Source: Panorpa germanica (taxonomy: Eukaryota > Arthropoda > Insecta > Mecoptera > Panorpidae). Taken from it: a stretch of 64,000 nucleotides of DNA. The translations under genes and the position numbers were made by a program. Shown here one piece after another: positions 40,021 to 62,080 of the stretch. The notes under the pieces were generated by a model. The model ran no database searches. It was not told the origin of the DNA and saw only the letters and a list, made by a program, of their open reading frames with translations. Where the stretch lies: the NCBI GenBank assembly GCA_963678705.1, contig OY783203.1, positions 1,054,001-1,118,000 of the forward strand. The letters run 5' to 3'. Numbering within the stretch: the stretch's first letter is position 1; each line of letters begins with the position of its first letter.

Positions 40021-40069
40021 CCAGGCCCAGGCCCCAGGCCCCAGGCCCCAGGCTCCAGGCTCCAGGCCT
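40021..40069. repeat. CCCCAGG minisatellite
   Basis: Six or seven copies of an approximately 8-base unit (CCAGGCCC, later CCAGGCTC), strikingly GC-rich for this AT-rich window. Confidence 0.9.
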
Positions 40070-52830: not shown

Positions 52831-52981
52831 TTATAAATTATTGGCCTCTTCCTCCATAGTTCTGTAAACATATAATGGTGCAACTGCAATGATTATTCTA
52901 CATAACATAAAAGAATTTGATTAATAATCAAATATTTACAGTATATCTTCAATCGCCAAATCATGTAAACTAACTGCAGAC
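52831..52981 (-). other. Last two mini-exons of the array gene
   Basis: Exon 52940-52981 (42 bases, phase 2 to phase 2) encodes SAVSLHDLAIEDI. The terminal exon 52861-52831 begins with the third base of a codon, encodes TMEEEANNL and ends in TAA. Acceptors TTTTTCTAG and TTTACAG are both good. Confidence 0.75.
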
Positions 52982-55900
52982 CTAGAAAAACACTACTTGT
53001 TAGTTACTCATACTTAGTTTTAAATTAAATAATCAAATAAAAATTATAATTTTAAGTATCATAATTACATAGCTTCTGCAATCTGCGCGTTTCCTCTGCG
53101 AACATTTTATAAACAGATATTATTTAATTTAAAAATATATTATAAATAATTGAAAATTAATGTTTTAATTATCATAATTACATTTCTTCTGCGAGCCGCC
53201 TGTTTTCTCTGTGAAAATTTGAATAATAAATATTATTCATTTTGGTTTAAATGTTTAATCAAAAATTATTATTTTAAATATCATAATTACATTTCTTGTG
53301 CAAGTCGCCTCTGTTTTATGCGAAATCTAGATTAACAGATATTATTTATTTTGGTTTAAATGTTTAATCAAAAATTATTATTTCGATTATCATAATTACA
53401 TTTTTTCTGCGAGCCGCCTCCTTTCTCTGTGAAAATTTGAATAACAGATATTATTCATTTTGGCTTAAATGTTTAATCAAAAATTATTATTTTAAGCATC
53501 ATAATTACATTTGTGTTGCAAGCATTATGTGTTCTCTGTGAAAATTTGAATAACAAATATTATTTATTTAGGTTTAAATGTTTGATAAAAAAATATTATT
53601 TTAAGTATCATAATTACATTTCATCTGCAAGCATCGCGTTTTCTCTGTGAAAATTTGAATAACAGATATTATTTGTTTTGCTTTAAATGTTTAATCGAAA
53701 ATTATTATTTTAAGCATCATAATTACAGTTGTTCTGCAAGCAGCACGTCTGTTCTGTGAAAATTTTAGAAATAGATATTAATTATTTTGGTTTAAATATC
53801 TAATCGAAAATTATTATTTTAATTATCATAATTACATTGCTTCTGCAAGCCGCTTCTTTTTTCTGTGAAAATTTGAATAACAGATATTATTTATTTTGGT
53901 TTAAATGTTTAATAGAAAATTATTATTTTAAGTATCATAATTACCTTTGTTCTACAAGCTGCGCGATTCTTCTGTAAAAATTTTATAAACAGGTATTACT
54001 TATTTTGATTTAAATATTTAATCGAAAATTAATATTTTAAGTATCATAATTACATTTGGTCTGCAACCTGCGCGTTTTTACTGTGAAAATTTTATAAATA
54101 GATATTATTTATTTTGATTTAAATATTTAATCGAAAATTATTATTAAGTATCATAATTACATTTCTTCTGGAAGCTTTAAGTTTTCTCTGTAAAAATTAA
54201 TTAATAACAGATATTATTTGTTTTATTTTAGTAAAGTGTAAAGCTACTCTTAAAGTCAGTGTGGCATATAAACATAATTTAATATGTTTAAAGTACACTA
54301 AAAATTAAGAATAAAAACTCTTAAGACTATTGTTACATTTCTGAATCATCTCCATCGGCTGCTATCCTGTAAAAAATTGAACAAAATTTATTATTTCTTA
54401 TAAATTAAAAACCAAATGAAAATAATAATTTAAAATGACATAATTACAAATCATTTTTAGATCTCTCAGCTTCCCTAATATAAGTGTTCCTAAAATGTTA
54501 AAATAAATGTAATATTTCCATGATAGATATTTCATTTACAGTTATTATTTGAATTATATAATTACAATACGTCTTGAGGATTCCATGTAGCCCTGTAAGA
54601 ATTTTTATAAACGTAATTAGTTGTAAATTAAATAATCAAATAAAAAGTATTATTTTAAGTATCATAATTACATTTCTTCTGCAGACATATTATATATATA
54701 TATATATATATATAAAATAAGCCACAAAAAGTTAAACGTTAAATATATTCAATCATTGTATATAGCGGAAAGAAGAGTTATTTATTAAAAAAAATTATAA
54801 TTCCTTGTACTCGCTTGCTCAATAACACAGTATCAAGTGATGTGCCTTATCGGTCAAACTAAGAAACGGTCCTATTGTACAATCGCTCATGCAAACTATC
54901 ATACAGTAATAGGAAATAAATAAAAGTATAATTAGTTAATTCCTTGCTAAAGTAATTATTCCAAATAATTCTAAACAATGACATCATTTATCTAAATTGT
55001 ACTGTATAATAAAAAGTTCTCTGTCAACAACTAAACTATTCTCCTGAACAGGTATTATTAACTAAATTTAATTTTTTTCAGATAAAACCTAATATTACAT
55101 TGCATTACTTTTACTGATATCTGCTGATTCCTGTCCTGTGCGCTATGTCCAACTATAATATAAATACTGTCCAATTCTAATAGAAATATCTGACTGCTAT
55201 CCTAACTATTGTTTACATGGACTTATTCACTTCATTCATCAATTGCTTTCTGTGAAAAATTTATATATTGTTAGCGACTATATAAGCACTTATTAATATT
55301 TCTAAACGATATTACGAGATTTACATGAATCTATCAAACTCTTCTTGCCCATCACTAAACGGAATCCTAAGAATGACAACAAGCAATTATCATACTACGT
55401 CATTGGTATCATTTTAAAACCATATATATTTACTCTTCAAAATCTAACTGGTTTAATATATCATCGTCATTTTCCTGTCTGTAAGAAATTGTAATCATTT
55501 ATATTTAAACAACTTTGAAAAATGTTTTAAATTAAAACGCTTACCGTACAGCTTCAGTCGCTATTTCATCAATTTCCCTGCAAAAAATTTAGCTATTAGA
55601 GAAGAAATTGTAATAGTTTAATAATCATACTTAATGTTCAAAGACAATAGTAATGTCTCAGATAATTTACATGAAGTAATTATGTACAGCATTGTATAAG
55701 TTATAAAAATAATTTAGAATAAAACACTAACCGTGCAGCGTCACTTATTGTTTCAATGTCATCATTTTGCCTGCAAAAAATTATAGGAATTAGATGAACT
55801 CATCTTTATTGTATTAATTTAATACTCGCACTTAATGCTAAGTGATAATAGTAATGCTTAACATATTTATATGAATCTAAAACGATCTATAATTTAAAAT

Positions 55901-58900
55901 AAAAAAAATTACCGTGTAACTTCACCCGGTATTTCATCATCATCTTCTCTGCAAACAATTATAGCAATTAGAGATGAAGTAATACATATTGTAGTATATA
56001 TCAATAATAGAAGAGATAGACTACACGAATATATGATTATTTCTAAAACGCTTTATAATCTATTAATAAAATTTCAAATTAAACACTTACAGTACAAGTT
56101 GAGGCGATATTTCAGCATCTGGCCTGCAAATAATTATAAGCAATTAATGATTAATTCATACCCATTATGTGGCCCCATAATCTGAATAATCTCACTTATT
56201 GCTGAGTGGCAATAGTAATGTTTGAGTTATTTACATACCGCTGAACAATTTATTTATAAAAATATTTTAAAATAGGAAACTCACTCTGCTTCTGCTTCAT
56301 CTTCAGCAGCTATAATATCGTCCCTACAAAAAATTATAACAATTAGAGATGTACTCAAACGCATAGTAGTACAATCATTTTACTTATCAACAATGATTGA
56401 CTTTTTGATTGTACTTTGTAACAATAATAACATTGCTAAATATAGATATGTACAAAAATAGTTTGCAAAATACAAAATACTTTTTTAAATTGAAAATACA
56501 ATTTTATTTTAAATTTCACGTCCCGGGTTAAGTAATTAGTGTTATGTGAATGAGATATGTTAAATTATGTTGAATTTTTTATTTGAAATTGAAAAATTAA
56601 AAAAAAGTATTTTATATTTTGAAAACTATTTTTGTACATCTCTAGTTAAATATATAAATGAGCTGATCAACAAAAGCGCTTTATACTGTTATTAATATCA
56701 TTTATAAGAAAGTTACACTAACACGTTAAAGTAACACTTACCATGCAGCTTCAGCCGCTGTTTCATTATCTTCCCTGCAAAAAAAAAAACAGAAATTAGA
56801 GATGAGCTTATATTTACTATAGTAGGTAGCTCAATAACTGTATTAACTGTAAAGTGCTTCACACTTTATAAATACCGTTTAAAATAAAACACTTACCATG
56901 CATCTTCAGATAATAATTCTTCATCTTCCCTACAAAAAAAAAATATAATCTTTATTATCATTGACAGTAATTAATTCTTTAAACCGCTTTATAATTTATA
57001 AACATTATTTAAAACTTAAAAAAAACTCACTCTGCAATTTCAACCATTAAATCATCGTCATCTTCCCTGCAAAAAATATATCAATTACAAATAAAGTTCT
57101 AGTCATTGTAGTAGCTTAATAATCTCACTTTTCTGACTCACAAATATCATTACAAAGTAATATTTCAAAAATAAAACTCTCAATCCACTTAATAATTAAT
57201 AAATATAATTTAAAATAAAACACTCACCGTGCAGGTTCAACCGCTATTTGATCATTATCTTGTCTGAAACAAATTGTAGAGATTTAGAATAATACTCATT
57301 GTAGTAACTAAATAATTTTACTTATTGTTAAGTGCAATGTAATGTTTAAGATATTTACTTGAATGGATCCTTTAAAGAGTCTCTCACGAATCTGAAAAAA
57401 TGAATATCAATTAATCTCTGAATTTACCCGTAAACATTTGTTGGAATTGACCTTTTGGAGACACTTGAAATTCTACATTTCTTAATTTTCTTTGCAAATT
57501 TAATTACCCTATTTCACAGCAAAACTAAAATCCCAAAATAAAGAATTCCTTCCTTGACTGTTTAAAAGTGATTTACAAAAAATGTACATGTATAATATTT
57601 ACCTTAAAGTTGCAGCCAAAGTATTCTCAATAAACAATGACCTGAAAATAAATAATGTTAATAGCGATCAATATAAATAAATTATATATATTTAAAAAAA
57701 AATTACTAACGTGATTTCATTTGATTCATCTTCGTTGCGAATTCTGTGAAAAAAATTATTATTTTCAATTATTTACAATAATTTCAATTTATACTATTAT
57801 TATAAAGATGTATTATAAAAATATTTACGAGATACTTGATTCCATACTGTTCCTATAAGCACACAATAGTTAGTTACTTAATTAAATTTAAAAGATTGAT
57901 ACATTTATTGAAGAAAAATGATAATTACGGGCTTAAAGTGAGGTCTTCTATTGGCGTTTCCTCCTCAACTTCTCCTTCTTCCCCCTCCATCGTCATTTCA
58001 ACATCTTCCAAATCGTACATTTCAAACTCTTGATTTTCTACCAGTGTGGCCTCTTCAACGTTTTCTAACGCATCCATCTCTACAAGCTCTTCGAACTCTA
58101 ACTCTTCTTCCTCAACTATTTCATTGGTTTCGTCCATTTCTAGTAGCATGTCTTCAACCTCTTCATACTCTTCATCTATTTCACAGTCTTCATCCTCGTC
58201 ATACTCTCCAAAATCTTCCTCTTCCTCTTCCTCCAACAACTCTGGATCTGTTGTGTTGTTTCCCGATAGAAAATCCAATAGCCGTACCACCTCTCCTTCC
58301 TCCTCCTCTTCCAGCACATCCTCGGCTTCAGAACTATGGAAAACTTATTAGTTATTAATATATTGAATATATTAGTTATGACTTAATTTTAAAGTAAATT
58401 ACGTTTCTGAACAGTCCAAAATGTCCCCTTCTGTCCCCTGATTTCGATCTCTTAATCTTGATCCTCTGTAAAAAGTTATTAGTTATTCATGTCTTCATTT
58501 TACACGGCAATTTTATTGTTTCAAAATAAATAAATTATAATTTTTTAAAAGTAGTAAACTAGAAAATAAGTTCAGCAACAAAACCGACCATATCATTTAT
58601 GTATTGTATATATATATATAATATTATTTATTATATATTTATATATATATTTCCAACAGTTATATTTTTATTTAGCAAAATTTAAACATAGAAACCAATT
58701 ATAATTATTCACTTGATATACATGCCGAAAATAGGACGGAGATTCAGACTTTGGTAAATTGAATGTTTCCACAAGTTGAAGCACATCGTTATATTCCAAA
58801 ACACATTGATCTTCAGTCTAAACAGAATAAAAGTTATAAGTTCTGGAATTTATATTATTACTGATTAATAGAAACATACAATATTTTTACAAATAATTTC

Positions 58901-59740
58901 TACAATTACCTTATTCGAAGCAATTTGTTCAAGCTCGTTGGCCCATGTATACAACGTCCTTTCGAACATTTTTGTAACACCACGTAGCCTGTAATAAAAG
59001 AAAATTTGAATAGAAACAAGTCAATTTTCACATTAGCAATTAATAATATTATTAAAGCACATCACGTAGATTAAGAACACTCGGTAGTCAACATTGCCTG
59101 AATGCATGTTTTCCTTTTAACATTAAAATCAACGTCTACCTAATCTCAAAATAACGAAAGAAAAAACTTCACGATTTCGAACCAAGAATCTCTTGTATTA
59201 TTAATCGTTTGAACTCGATTCTTTTTCAATATTGGTGGATATTGTAATTTCGAGCGTGATGTATGAGTACAAAGGTTAAAAATTCTCGTTCCACTTCAAA
59301 TATCTAGCTTGCAAGAAATATATTTTATCTCAAATTTGACAATCTACTTAAATACATATATGTAAATTTTAAATAAGAATCTTAATAAGAATTACAAAAC
59401 TACATCAAATGGTCATAAGAGATAGCTCTATAAACACTTATATATAATTATAAATATTCCATTCTACGATGCATAATTTATACAATAATGTTTACTTACA
59501 TTATCCTATCAAAAGCAACCCCTTCTTTTCCAAGAACGTGCTTAGTAACTTCGTCAGGTACCTAAAAATTAAATTACAACTTTTCAGATGCCATTTGTCT
59601 GTTCTGTATAATACTATTATATTAACTGTGCATCTTTAATTATAAAACGTAATAGTTACTAGCATATTTTCCTCTGCTAATAAACGTGCCACATCTTCAG
59701 TTCCACTTTCTTCAGGAGCCTTCGGTTTAAAACTGAACAT
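52831..59740 (-). CDS. Unrecognised acidic protein built from an array of phase-2 mini-exons
   Basis: Six leading exons (59660-59740, 59500-59561, 58910-58988, 58726-58817, 58403-58465, 57929-58333) are followed by about 30 mini-exons and a terminal exon 52831-52861 with a TAA stop. The joined frame is open for 1,767 bases, 588 residues. The N-terminal 105 or so residues look globular (starts MFSFKPKAPEES, later MFERTLYTWANELEQI). Residues about 126-260 are a Glu/Asp-rich exon (for example EEEEEGEV). The rest is a chain of 9-15 residue modules, first acidic and then charged (for example ENRRLAEEM). No signal peptide or membrane segment is seen. The family and function are unknown. Exon 4 joins in frame only with a GC donor (TCG/GCATGT at 58725). 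The gene is convergent with SLC26. What supports it is the coherence of dozens of splice sites and phases, not similarity to anything known. Confidence 0.8.
53033..54190 (-). repeat. Tandem array of 109-base exon-intron units
   Basis: Eleven copies. Donor-side exon ends lie at 53069, 53182, 53291, 53400, 53509, 53618, 53727, 53836, 53945, 54054 and 54161, so spacing is exactly 109 for eight consecutive steps, and 113 and 107 at the edges. Each unit carries a 27-base exon after TTCACAG-type acceptors and before GTAATTATGAT donors. Peptides vary: GNAQIAEA, ENRRLAEE, ERRRLAEK, EHIMLATQ, ENAMLADE, TDVLLAEQ, KKKRLAEA, RIAQLVEQ, KNAQVADQ, ENLKLPEE. The intron part (AATTTGAATAACAGATATTA on the plus strand, with variants) is at least as conserved as the exon. 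The unit at 53291-53317 has lost its acceptor AG. Confidence 0.9.
54337..54698 (-). other. Mini-exons between the two arrays
   Basis: Phase-2 exons at 54337-54366 (30 bases, IAADGDDSE), 54448-54489 (42 bases, NTYIREAERSKND) and 54566-54592 (27 bases, ATWNPQDV). A further unit with donor end at 54672 keeps its 3' half (SAEE, then GTAATTATG), but its 5' half and acceptor are replaced by an AT microsatellite. It is either a dead exon or, since it now reads ATGTCTGCAGAAGAAAT, a possible alternative first exon. Confidence 0.7.
54690..54714. repeat. (AT)n microsatellite inside a mini-exon unit
   Basis: An AT run that overwrites the expected acceptor and exon start of the unit ending at 54672. Confidence 0.9.
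55115..55135 (-). other. Doubtful 21-base mini-exon
   Basis: GACAGGAATCAGCAGATATC plus A lies between a GCACAG acceptor and a GTAAAAG donor. It starts and ends in phase 2, as its neighbours do. It lacks a pyrimidine tract and its peptide (TGISRY) is unlike the acidic modules, so it may be chance. It is not counted in the 588-residue protein. Confidence 0.25.
55217..57743 (-). other. Array of 15 acidic phase-2 mini-exons
   Basis: Exons, in transcript order: 57711-57743, 57603-57641, 57359-57391, 57228-57263, 57031-57066, 56897-56929, 56742-56774, 56285-56323, 56091-56123, 55913-55948, 55732-55770, 55545-55577, 55434-55478, 55325-55366 and 55217-55249. Lengths are 33, 39, 33, 36, 36, 33, 33, 39, 33, 36, 39, 33, 45, 42 and 33, all multiples of three. 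Peptides are mostly acidic and related, such as EDDDDLMVEIA, EDNETAAEAA, DDIIAAEDEAEA and EIDEIATEAV. Acceptors are TTTTTGCAG-like and donors are GTAAGT, GTGAGT or close. Shared intron text (AATTAGAGATGA) shows that units were copied, but spacing (108 to 457) is looser than in the 109-base array. In exon 55434-55478 a TAA follows directly after the GTAAAT donor start, so reading through would stop there. Confidence 0.85.
56445..56642. mobile_element. Mariner-type MITE in a mini-exon intron
   Basis: GATATGTACAAAAATAGTTT on the left and GAGATGTACAAAAATAGTTT read inward from the right form inverted arms of about 50 bases. Both ends are flanked by TA (56443-56444 and 56643-56644), the target duplication of Tc1/mariner elements. 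It accounts for most of the extra length of the interval between exons 56285-56323 and 56742-56774. Confidence 0.65.
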
Positions 59741-61836: not shown

Positions 61837-62080
61837 TTAAGCAACGATATTTATATGCTTGAGTGCGGTTTCTTGGAGTTTGTGTTGAAGTCTTCTTAAT
61901 TCTGTATCCTGTTGAACATTGGATCGTACATAAAGAGAGCAACTCCATGACAGTGTTTCTAATAATACTGTCGACGGATAGCTCTCTTCATTTACGAATC
62001 CTGCCGCCCTTTCTTGTACAATACTTTTCAATATCTTAGGTTGATAGCTGCTCAGAAAATCAGTTTGCTTTTAAATTCCA
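61837..62080 (-). other. Orphan exon-like open region
   Basis: The minus frame is open from about 62080 to a TAA at 61837. It is less AT-rich than its flanks and has a helical, charged look (ILKSIVQERAAGFV, ELRRLQHKLQETALKH). There is no ATG; AG acceptors are available near 62041-62054. It could be the last exon of a gene or retroelement whose rest lies outside this window, or a pseudogene piece. No family is recognised. Confidence 0.25.

Follow-up and report, generated by a model that had tools for sequence, protein, structure and literature searches.

In a 64,000-nt window of the mecopteran insect Panorpa germanica (positions 1,054,001 to 1,118,000 of contig OY783203.1, assembly GCA_963678705.1), we analyzed a minus-strand gene that runs from an ATG at position 59740 of the window to a TAA at 52831 and whose predicted coding sequence passes through a long series of mini-exons. 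Taken as a whole, the evidence leads us to favor, with moderate confidence, the reading that this is one gene, derived from a duplicate of TAF10 that has acquired a mini-exon tail, and that its product would probably be a nuclear accessory of TFIID or SAGA.

Exon structure and reading frame

We read the minus strand between 59740 and 52831 directly and scanned it for acceptor-donor pairs; the splicing described throughout is predicted. The joined model comprises 38 exons and 1827 nt, corresponding to 608 codons and a stop, with an in-frame TAG 12 nt upstream of the ATG. Six larger exons precede 31 consecutive internal mini-exons (exons 7-37) of 24-45 nt, each of which starts and ends in phase 2, that is, with the intron following the second base of a codon, and is free of stops. 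These mini-exons supply 1014 of the 1827 coding nucleotides (55%), with 726 nt in the 24 exons of 36 nt or less. Predicted introns span 66-624 nt, with a median of 85 nt. The original prediction, made from the sequence alone, had proposed a mini-exon gene with these same ends and with internal exons divisible by three and in phase 2, which holds for 31 of 31 in our model. Its counts of about 36 exons and 30 mini-exons require revision to 38 and 31, and its size range of 27-45 nt is slightly narrow, as exon 7 is only 24 nt long.

Exons 1 to 4 encode the N-terminus: exon 1 (59740-59660, 81 nt) carries the ATG and ends in phase 0, exon 2 (59561-59500, 62 nt) contains the TAF10-like stretch VPDEVTKHVLGKEGVAFDRI and ends in phase 2, exon 3 (58988-58910, 79 nt) covers a TAF10-like helix region from phase 2 to phase 0, and exon 4 (58817-58726, 92 nt) encodes a TAF10-like C-terminus (..SPSYFR). 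Exons 5 (58465-58403, 63 nt) and 6 (58333-57929, 405 nt) encode a strongly acidic region and, like the mini-exons, are divisible by three and in phase 2 at both ends. Mini-exons 7-10 (57852-57359) measure 24, 33, 39 and 33 nt. They are followed by mini-exons 11-19 (57263-55545, 33-39 nt), a degenerate tandem array (array 1) encoding acidic modules such as EDNETAAEAAW, and then by mini-exons 20-22 (55478-55217; 45, 42 and 33 nt) and 23-25 (54592-54337), which measure 27, 42 or 27, and 30 nt, the length of exon 24 being ambiguous. Mini-exons 26-36 (54187-53069) form a second tandem array (array 2) with units of 100-118 bp, in which ten exons are 27 nt long and one is 36 nt; they encode modules such as ENRRLAEEI. 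Mini-exon 37 (52981-52940, 42 nt) and the terminal exon 38 (52861-52831, 31 nt), which carries the TAA stop, complete the model.

An automatic search for the longest chain of open phase-2 mini-exons returned a chain of 33 (57900-52871), consisting of the 31 in our model, with exon 20 ended differently, plus two doubtful members at 57508-57452 and 54946-54905. By comparison, chains in 60 first-order Markov sequences averaged 3.3 with a maximum of 8, chains in parts of the window clear of the gene reached at most 13 (240 tests in all), and chains in 20 other 10-kb stretches of the genome, eight of which flank the window, averaged 3.6 with a maximum of 13 (360 tests). The earlier claim that random sequence would not give such a series is borne out by these controls. 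A second cluster on the minus strand at ~15.1-11.7 kb, with a chain of 13, looks like chance, having weak sites and no repeat that we could see.

The same periodicity appears in a frame-blind test, in which we measured how far each strong acceptor lies from the strong donor that follows it and asked whether the distance was divisible by three. This was the case for 27 of 28 distances in the gene; over most of the rest of the minus strand the figure was 23 of 79, and a plus-strand control over positions 1-60360, which includes the strand opposite the gene, gave 26 of 83. With the loosest thresholds the contrast is weaker but is kept (40 of 71 in the gene, against 136 of 438 and 153 of 497 in the controls). 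Within the 31 mini-exons, stops are absent from the 307 codons read in phase 2, and occur in 18 of 307 codons in phase 1 and 47 of 338 in phase 0. Together, these sequence patterns support the predicted exon structure and coding frame.

TAF10 likeness of the first exons and their junction with the tail

Exons 1-4 have the appearance of a TAF10 paralogue that has diverged strongly, though the similarity is weak. For the N-terminus, Pfam lists a single family at E-values up to 10, TAF10 (PF03540), and the match itself is weak (E 0.062, 13.9 bits). When compared using hhalign, a profile of four TAF10 sequences aligns over most of the fold with a score of 22.3 (P 0.0019), a score reached by 0 of 200 shuffles in one set and 1 of 1500 in another. 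Alignment with TAF10 extends to its C-terminal motif. A search of the Protein Data Bank with the N-terminus gave only weak, apparently unrelated matches (Csm2, E 0.7).

The intron layout offers a second line of comparison. The insect's own TAF10 gene, on contig C18, has four exons with introns in phases 0, 2 and 0, and introns 1-3 of the mini-exon gene have the same phases; exon 2 shares its start and end phases with exon 2 of the TAF10 gene, which is 65 nt long. Intron 1 lies directly before (I/V)PD, intron 2 falls inside a codon that MAFFT aligns to the split codon of TAF10, and intron 3 lies in the loop preceding the C-terminal motif. In all, two of the three introns share an identical MAFFT column and phase, for which the probability of two exact matches by chance is 7.2e-5, and the third has the same phase but sits five columns off, inside a gap. 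The kept introns point to a DNA copy rather than a retrocopy. Genome searches with the N-terminus at E-values up to 10 recovered only its own exons (four matches) and no second copy, and those with TAF10 recovered only the C18 gene (four matches). No relative of the N-terminus was confirmed when viral contigs were scanned. A TAF10 origin of the N-terminus is thus supported but not certain, and we file the gene as TAF10-derived, not as a TAF10.

The junction between exons 4 and 5 needs a non-standard or very weak donor. Splicing exon 4 at its GT donor (58722) disrupts the frame in exon 6. Among 19 frame-keeping joins of exon 4 to exon 5, the best pairs a GC donor at 58726 (TTTCG/gcatgta, where / denotes the splice position) with a strong acceptor at 58465 (summed score 7.9), and the next-best frame-keeping donors are GT sites at 58750 (5.1) and 58738 (3.3). 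Two mismatches separate this GC donor from what we take to be the consensus for such sites. An additional GT-AG exon in intron 4 that would repair the frame was sought, with no options found. The open joined frame of the original prediction therefore stands with the GC donor or the lower-scoring GT options, but not with the GT donor at 58722. The GC junction is likewise supported but not certain.

Composition and tandem arrays of the tail

The tail agrees in composition with the chain of short charged modules after an acidic domain that had been predicted. Exons 5 and 6 encode 156 residues, of which 45% are aspartate or glutamate, with a net charge of -66. The first module set (189 residues) has a net charge of -51 and the last 125 residues, which include the 9-residue modules, one of -7. 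Pfam matches for the tail (TCTP at 0.056, CFAP300 at 0.085, SNaCT7 at ~0.2) were taken as low-complexity noise.

In array 2 the repeat is mostly 109 bp (6 of 10 spacings), a length not divisible by three, so that the frame is kept only through splicing. Across its units the splice sites are nearly fixed, with an identity of 1.0 for donors and 0.92 for acceptors, compared with 0.67 for exons and 0.70-0.74 for introns. In exon 34 (53326-53291) the regular acceptor CAG has become CAT; an AG located 9 nt upstream takes its place in the model, giving the 36-nt exon with the frame kept. As its length differs, exon 34 was left out of the column counts and of the proportions of nonsynonymous (pN) and synonymous (pS) differences. 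Over the other ten exons, pN is 0.39 and pS 0.17 in the true frame, where few sites contribute to pS and the units are related to one another. The corresponding ratio of substitution rates (dN/dS) is 2.87, or 2.53 with exon 34 included. The two shifted frames show no excess of pN (pN/pS of 0.34/0.37 and 0.32/0.36), and nine intron pseudo-frames gave pN of 0.22-0.28 and pS of 0.17-0.45. This pattern suggests that amino-acid changes in array 2 are favored in the protein.

Genome searches with the two arrays, whose counts are lower bounds, support growth of the tail by tandem duplication of exon-plus-intron units. The matches listed for array 2 are the array itself, a partial unit elsewhere in this gene, and a single weak match of 72 bp on another contig (C14:13003551-13003622, 80% identity). 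The partial unit (54683-54614, minus strand; 91% over 70 bp) lies between mini-exons 22 and 23, adjoins a TA run or microsatellite on its acceptor side, and is probably a dead or truncated mini-exon unit. Array 1 gave 25 further rows of matches, all within positions 643-872 of the query. Intron 14 contains a dispersed element of ~200 bp resembling a miniature inverted-repeat transposable element (window ~56658-56429), whose arms match each other and account for two of these rows; among the matches listed, similar stretches occur at 16 other places on many contigs. The genome matches of array 1 are this element, not exon units.

Alternative readings, proposed origin and known systems

Several observations count against a TAF10 duplicate with an acquired tail. 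The Pfam score of the N-terminus lies below the curated cut-off of 28 bits for TAF10, a Pfam search with a shorter N-terminal stretch gave no match, identity to TAF10 is ~22%, and BLASTP of the N-terminus against the insect's own TAF10 finds nothing. The hhalign probability of the TAF10 profile comparison is 14%; adding the insect's own TAF10 to the profile yields a score of 19.9, reached by 2 of 1000 shuffles, and a probability of 5%. With plain HMMER scoring the real sequence ties the best of 400 shuffles (3.9 bits), and hhalign alignments place intron 2 one residue off, beside a gap. Given such weak scores throughout, the N-terminus might instead be some other small helical domain whose likeness to TAF10 reflects convergence or chance, leaving only the micro-exon tail as meaningful. 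We consider this distinctly unlikely, because intron positions and phases are held in common with the insect's TAF10 and the alignment runs to the TAF10 C-terminal motif. At the junction with the tail, the GC donor scores -3.2 on a matrix built without GC donors, the lowest of the model's 37 donors (4.6-11.2 for the other 36), and an AATAAA just past exon 4 (58672-58667), overlapped by the read-through stop, would fit two separate transcripts. This weak donor and overlapping stop make a separate short transcript or two genes possible. In the two-gene form, a short TAF10-like gene would end by read-through after exon 4 (..SPSYFRHVYQVNNYNWFLCLNFAK), at the place matching the end of canonical TAF10, and the micro-exon gene would have a further exon upstream of exon 5; the off-frame GT donor at 58722 speaks for this too, as do frame-keeping donors that score poorly or need a poor acceptor. 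However, the GC donor is correctly placed and joins a strong acceptor, no additional GT-AG exon within intron 4 would restore the frame, and inspection by eye found no in-frame start in intron 4 leading via a donor into exon 5. We therefore regard two neighboring genes as unlikely.

The tail raises objections of its own: 2 of the 9 intron pseudo-frames also have pN above pS, less strongly, and array 1 lacks the contrast between exons and introns, with an exon identity of 0.62 and flanks of 0.63 and 0.66, so that the diversifying signal comes from array 2. The two pseudo-frames, together with a GC donor below the other donors, lowered our confidence in the overall reading slightly. One could propose a decaying pseudogene or a satellite-like repeat with fortuitous exon-like units, given that array 2 is a 109-bp tandem repeat with one lost acceptor and that one unit is truncated. 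This we find extremely unlikely, as the stops are excluded from phase 2 and not from the other phases, splice sites in array 2 are nearly fixed while its exons vary, and the substitution pattern is frame-specific. Descent from the bicycle genes of aphids, phylloxerids and coccids, with the product a divergent secreted effector, would account for the many small one-phase internal exons and the rapid amino-acid change, both of which are described in passages of PMC9168663. We applied the published coefficients of the bicycle classifier under two meanings of phase, and the gene scored p = 0.35 (phase as codon position) or ~0 (phase as in the general feature format), below the cut-off of 0.72 in both cases. 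No CYC motifs were seen, with 3 cysteines in 608 residues, and reading by eye revealed no N-terminal secretion signal, the start MFSFKPKAPEESGTEDVARLL being charged and preceded by an in-frame stop, though an upstream spliced exon could still add one. With a TAF10-like start bearing TAF10 introns, and only one copy of the N-terminus recovered by the genome search, a bicycle origin appears very unlikely.

Returning to the TAF10 duplicate, we propose that the TAF10 gene was duplicated at the DNA level, the copy keeping three introns, and that divergence left the duplicate barely recognizable, its last exon no longer carrying the original stop. A donor, apparently GC, would have arisen there and joined a downstream acidic exon and then the mini-exon series, and the tail would have expanded in at least two rounds by tandem exon-plus-intron duplication, probably through unequal crossing-over. 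Because exons 5-37 all start and end in phase 2, units could be gained, lost or skipped without a change of frame. The product may comprise a TAF10-like histone fold, pairing with a TAF8- or SPT7-type partner, and a tail of ~500 residues, strongly acidic at first and composed further on of helix-prone 9-residue modules that might form helices. As no hydrophobic start was seen by eye, the protein is probably intracellular, and probably nuclear. Within a restricted tissue, TFIID or SAGA could include it as an accessory or competing subunit, with the acidic tail contacting histones or basal factors. More tentatively, and in our view doubtfully, the gene may be a TAF10 paralogue with a combinatorial, frame-neutral tail of >30 mini-exons under diversifying selection, possibly sex-chromosomal and germline-restricted, in which both splicing and unequal crossing-over would adjust the length and charge of the acidic tail that TFIID or SAGA carries. 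Contig C21 measures 48 Mb, compared with C1-C12, which fall from 30.6 to 16.6 Mb, and would fit a sex chromosome listed last.

Elsewhere in the window, a microRNA precursor of the mir-46/mir-47/mir-281 family shares the strand of the gene and lies ~2.2 kb upstream of it (61920-62002, minus; Rfam RF00249, 83.4 bits). Neighboring genes were identified by Pfam matches, with extents set by eye from open frames. On the plus strand these are a sulfate permease with a STAS domain (43.2-50.7 kb), a MYND-finger protein with a SET match below the cut-off (35.2-37.1 kb), a member of glycosyltransferase family 2 that is GALNT-like by eye (20.5-23.2 kb), and a Quiver/Ly-6-like match below the cut-off (9.8-10.5 kb). 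A hexapeptide-repeat match on the minus strand (27.35-27.56 kb) is also below the cut-off. The heptamer CCAGGCC occurs seven times at 40021-40068.

The architecture alone is not without precedent, as genes with many small phase-2 exons have been published for aphids, phylloxerids and coccids, according to the same parts of PMC9168663. Among the titles and abstract openings listed in our searches of open-licence papers, none describes a TAF10-derived micro-exon gene. If our interpretation is correct, micro-exon architecture is not confined to the secreted effectors of parasites and sap feeders, and can also appear in a nuclear protein that descends from a housekeeping gene. The locus would then be a single-locus case of array formation, with a gene still recognizable by its introns, a new donor, and exon units that duplicate safely with respect to frame. 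It would also offer a test of whether symmetric mini-exons are favored for letting tail length vary freely.

In Drosophila, TAF10 is a subunit of TFIID and TAF10b one of SAGA, as stated in passages of PMC4640578. The gene described here shares with TAF10 the order of the matching region, the C-terminal motif, and three introns in phases 0, 2 and 0. It differs from TAF10 in its low identity, in a Pfam score below the cut-off, in the large loss of the conserved LAAQKFISD core, and in the added tail of ~500 residues.

The comparison with micro-exon genes of schistosomes (MEGs) and bicycle genes made in the original prediction is apt for the architecture. The prediction was incomplete in that the first ~105 residues, which precede the acidic domain, look like a diverged TAF10 with the TAF10 intron layout. 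Many small phase-2 exons and fast evolution characterize the bicycle genes in the passages of PMC9168663 cited above, and a long one-phase series of mini-exons and a fast-changing protein are found here as well; internal tandem duplication is shared with the megacycle genes of aphids. The bicycle proteins are secreted and have saposin-like folds, and most of them carry CYC motifs, although some members lack these too, as far as the relevant passages of PMC13041983 describe them. In contrast, the gene here has a strongly acidic product and a TAF10-like start, with neither signal nor CYC motifs seen. In MEGs, ~80% of the coding sequence lies in symmetric exons of 6-36 bp, and the products are secreted or membrane-anchored almost without exception, according to parts of PMC5825161. 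Short symmetric exons and a frame kept on skipping are common to both, whereas here the 55% of coding sequence in mini-exons lies in exons of 24-45 nt and no signal was seen by eye. Arrays of small one-phase exons grown by exon duplication are also present in titin PEVK and collagen, which are large structural proteins whose sequences are, to our knowledge, unrelated. Set beside these systems, the gene appears to work like a micro-exon gene, and we place it in neither the bicycle nor the MEG family.

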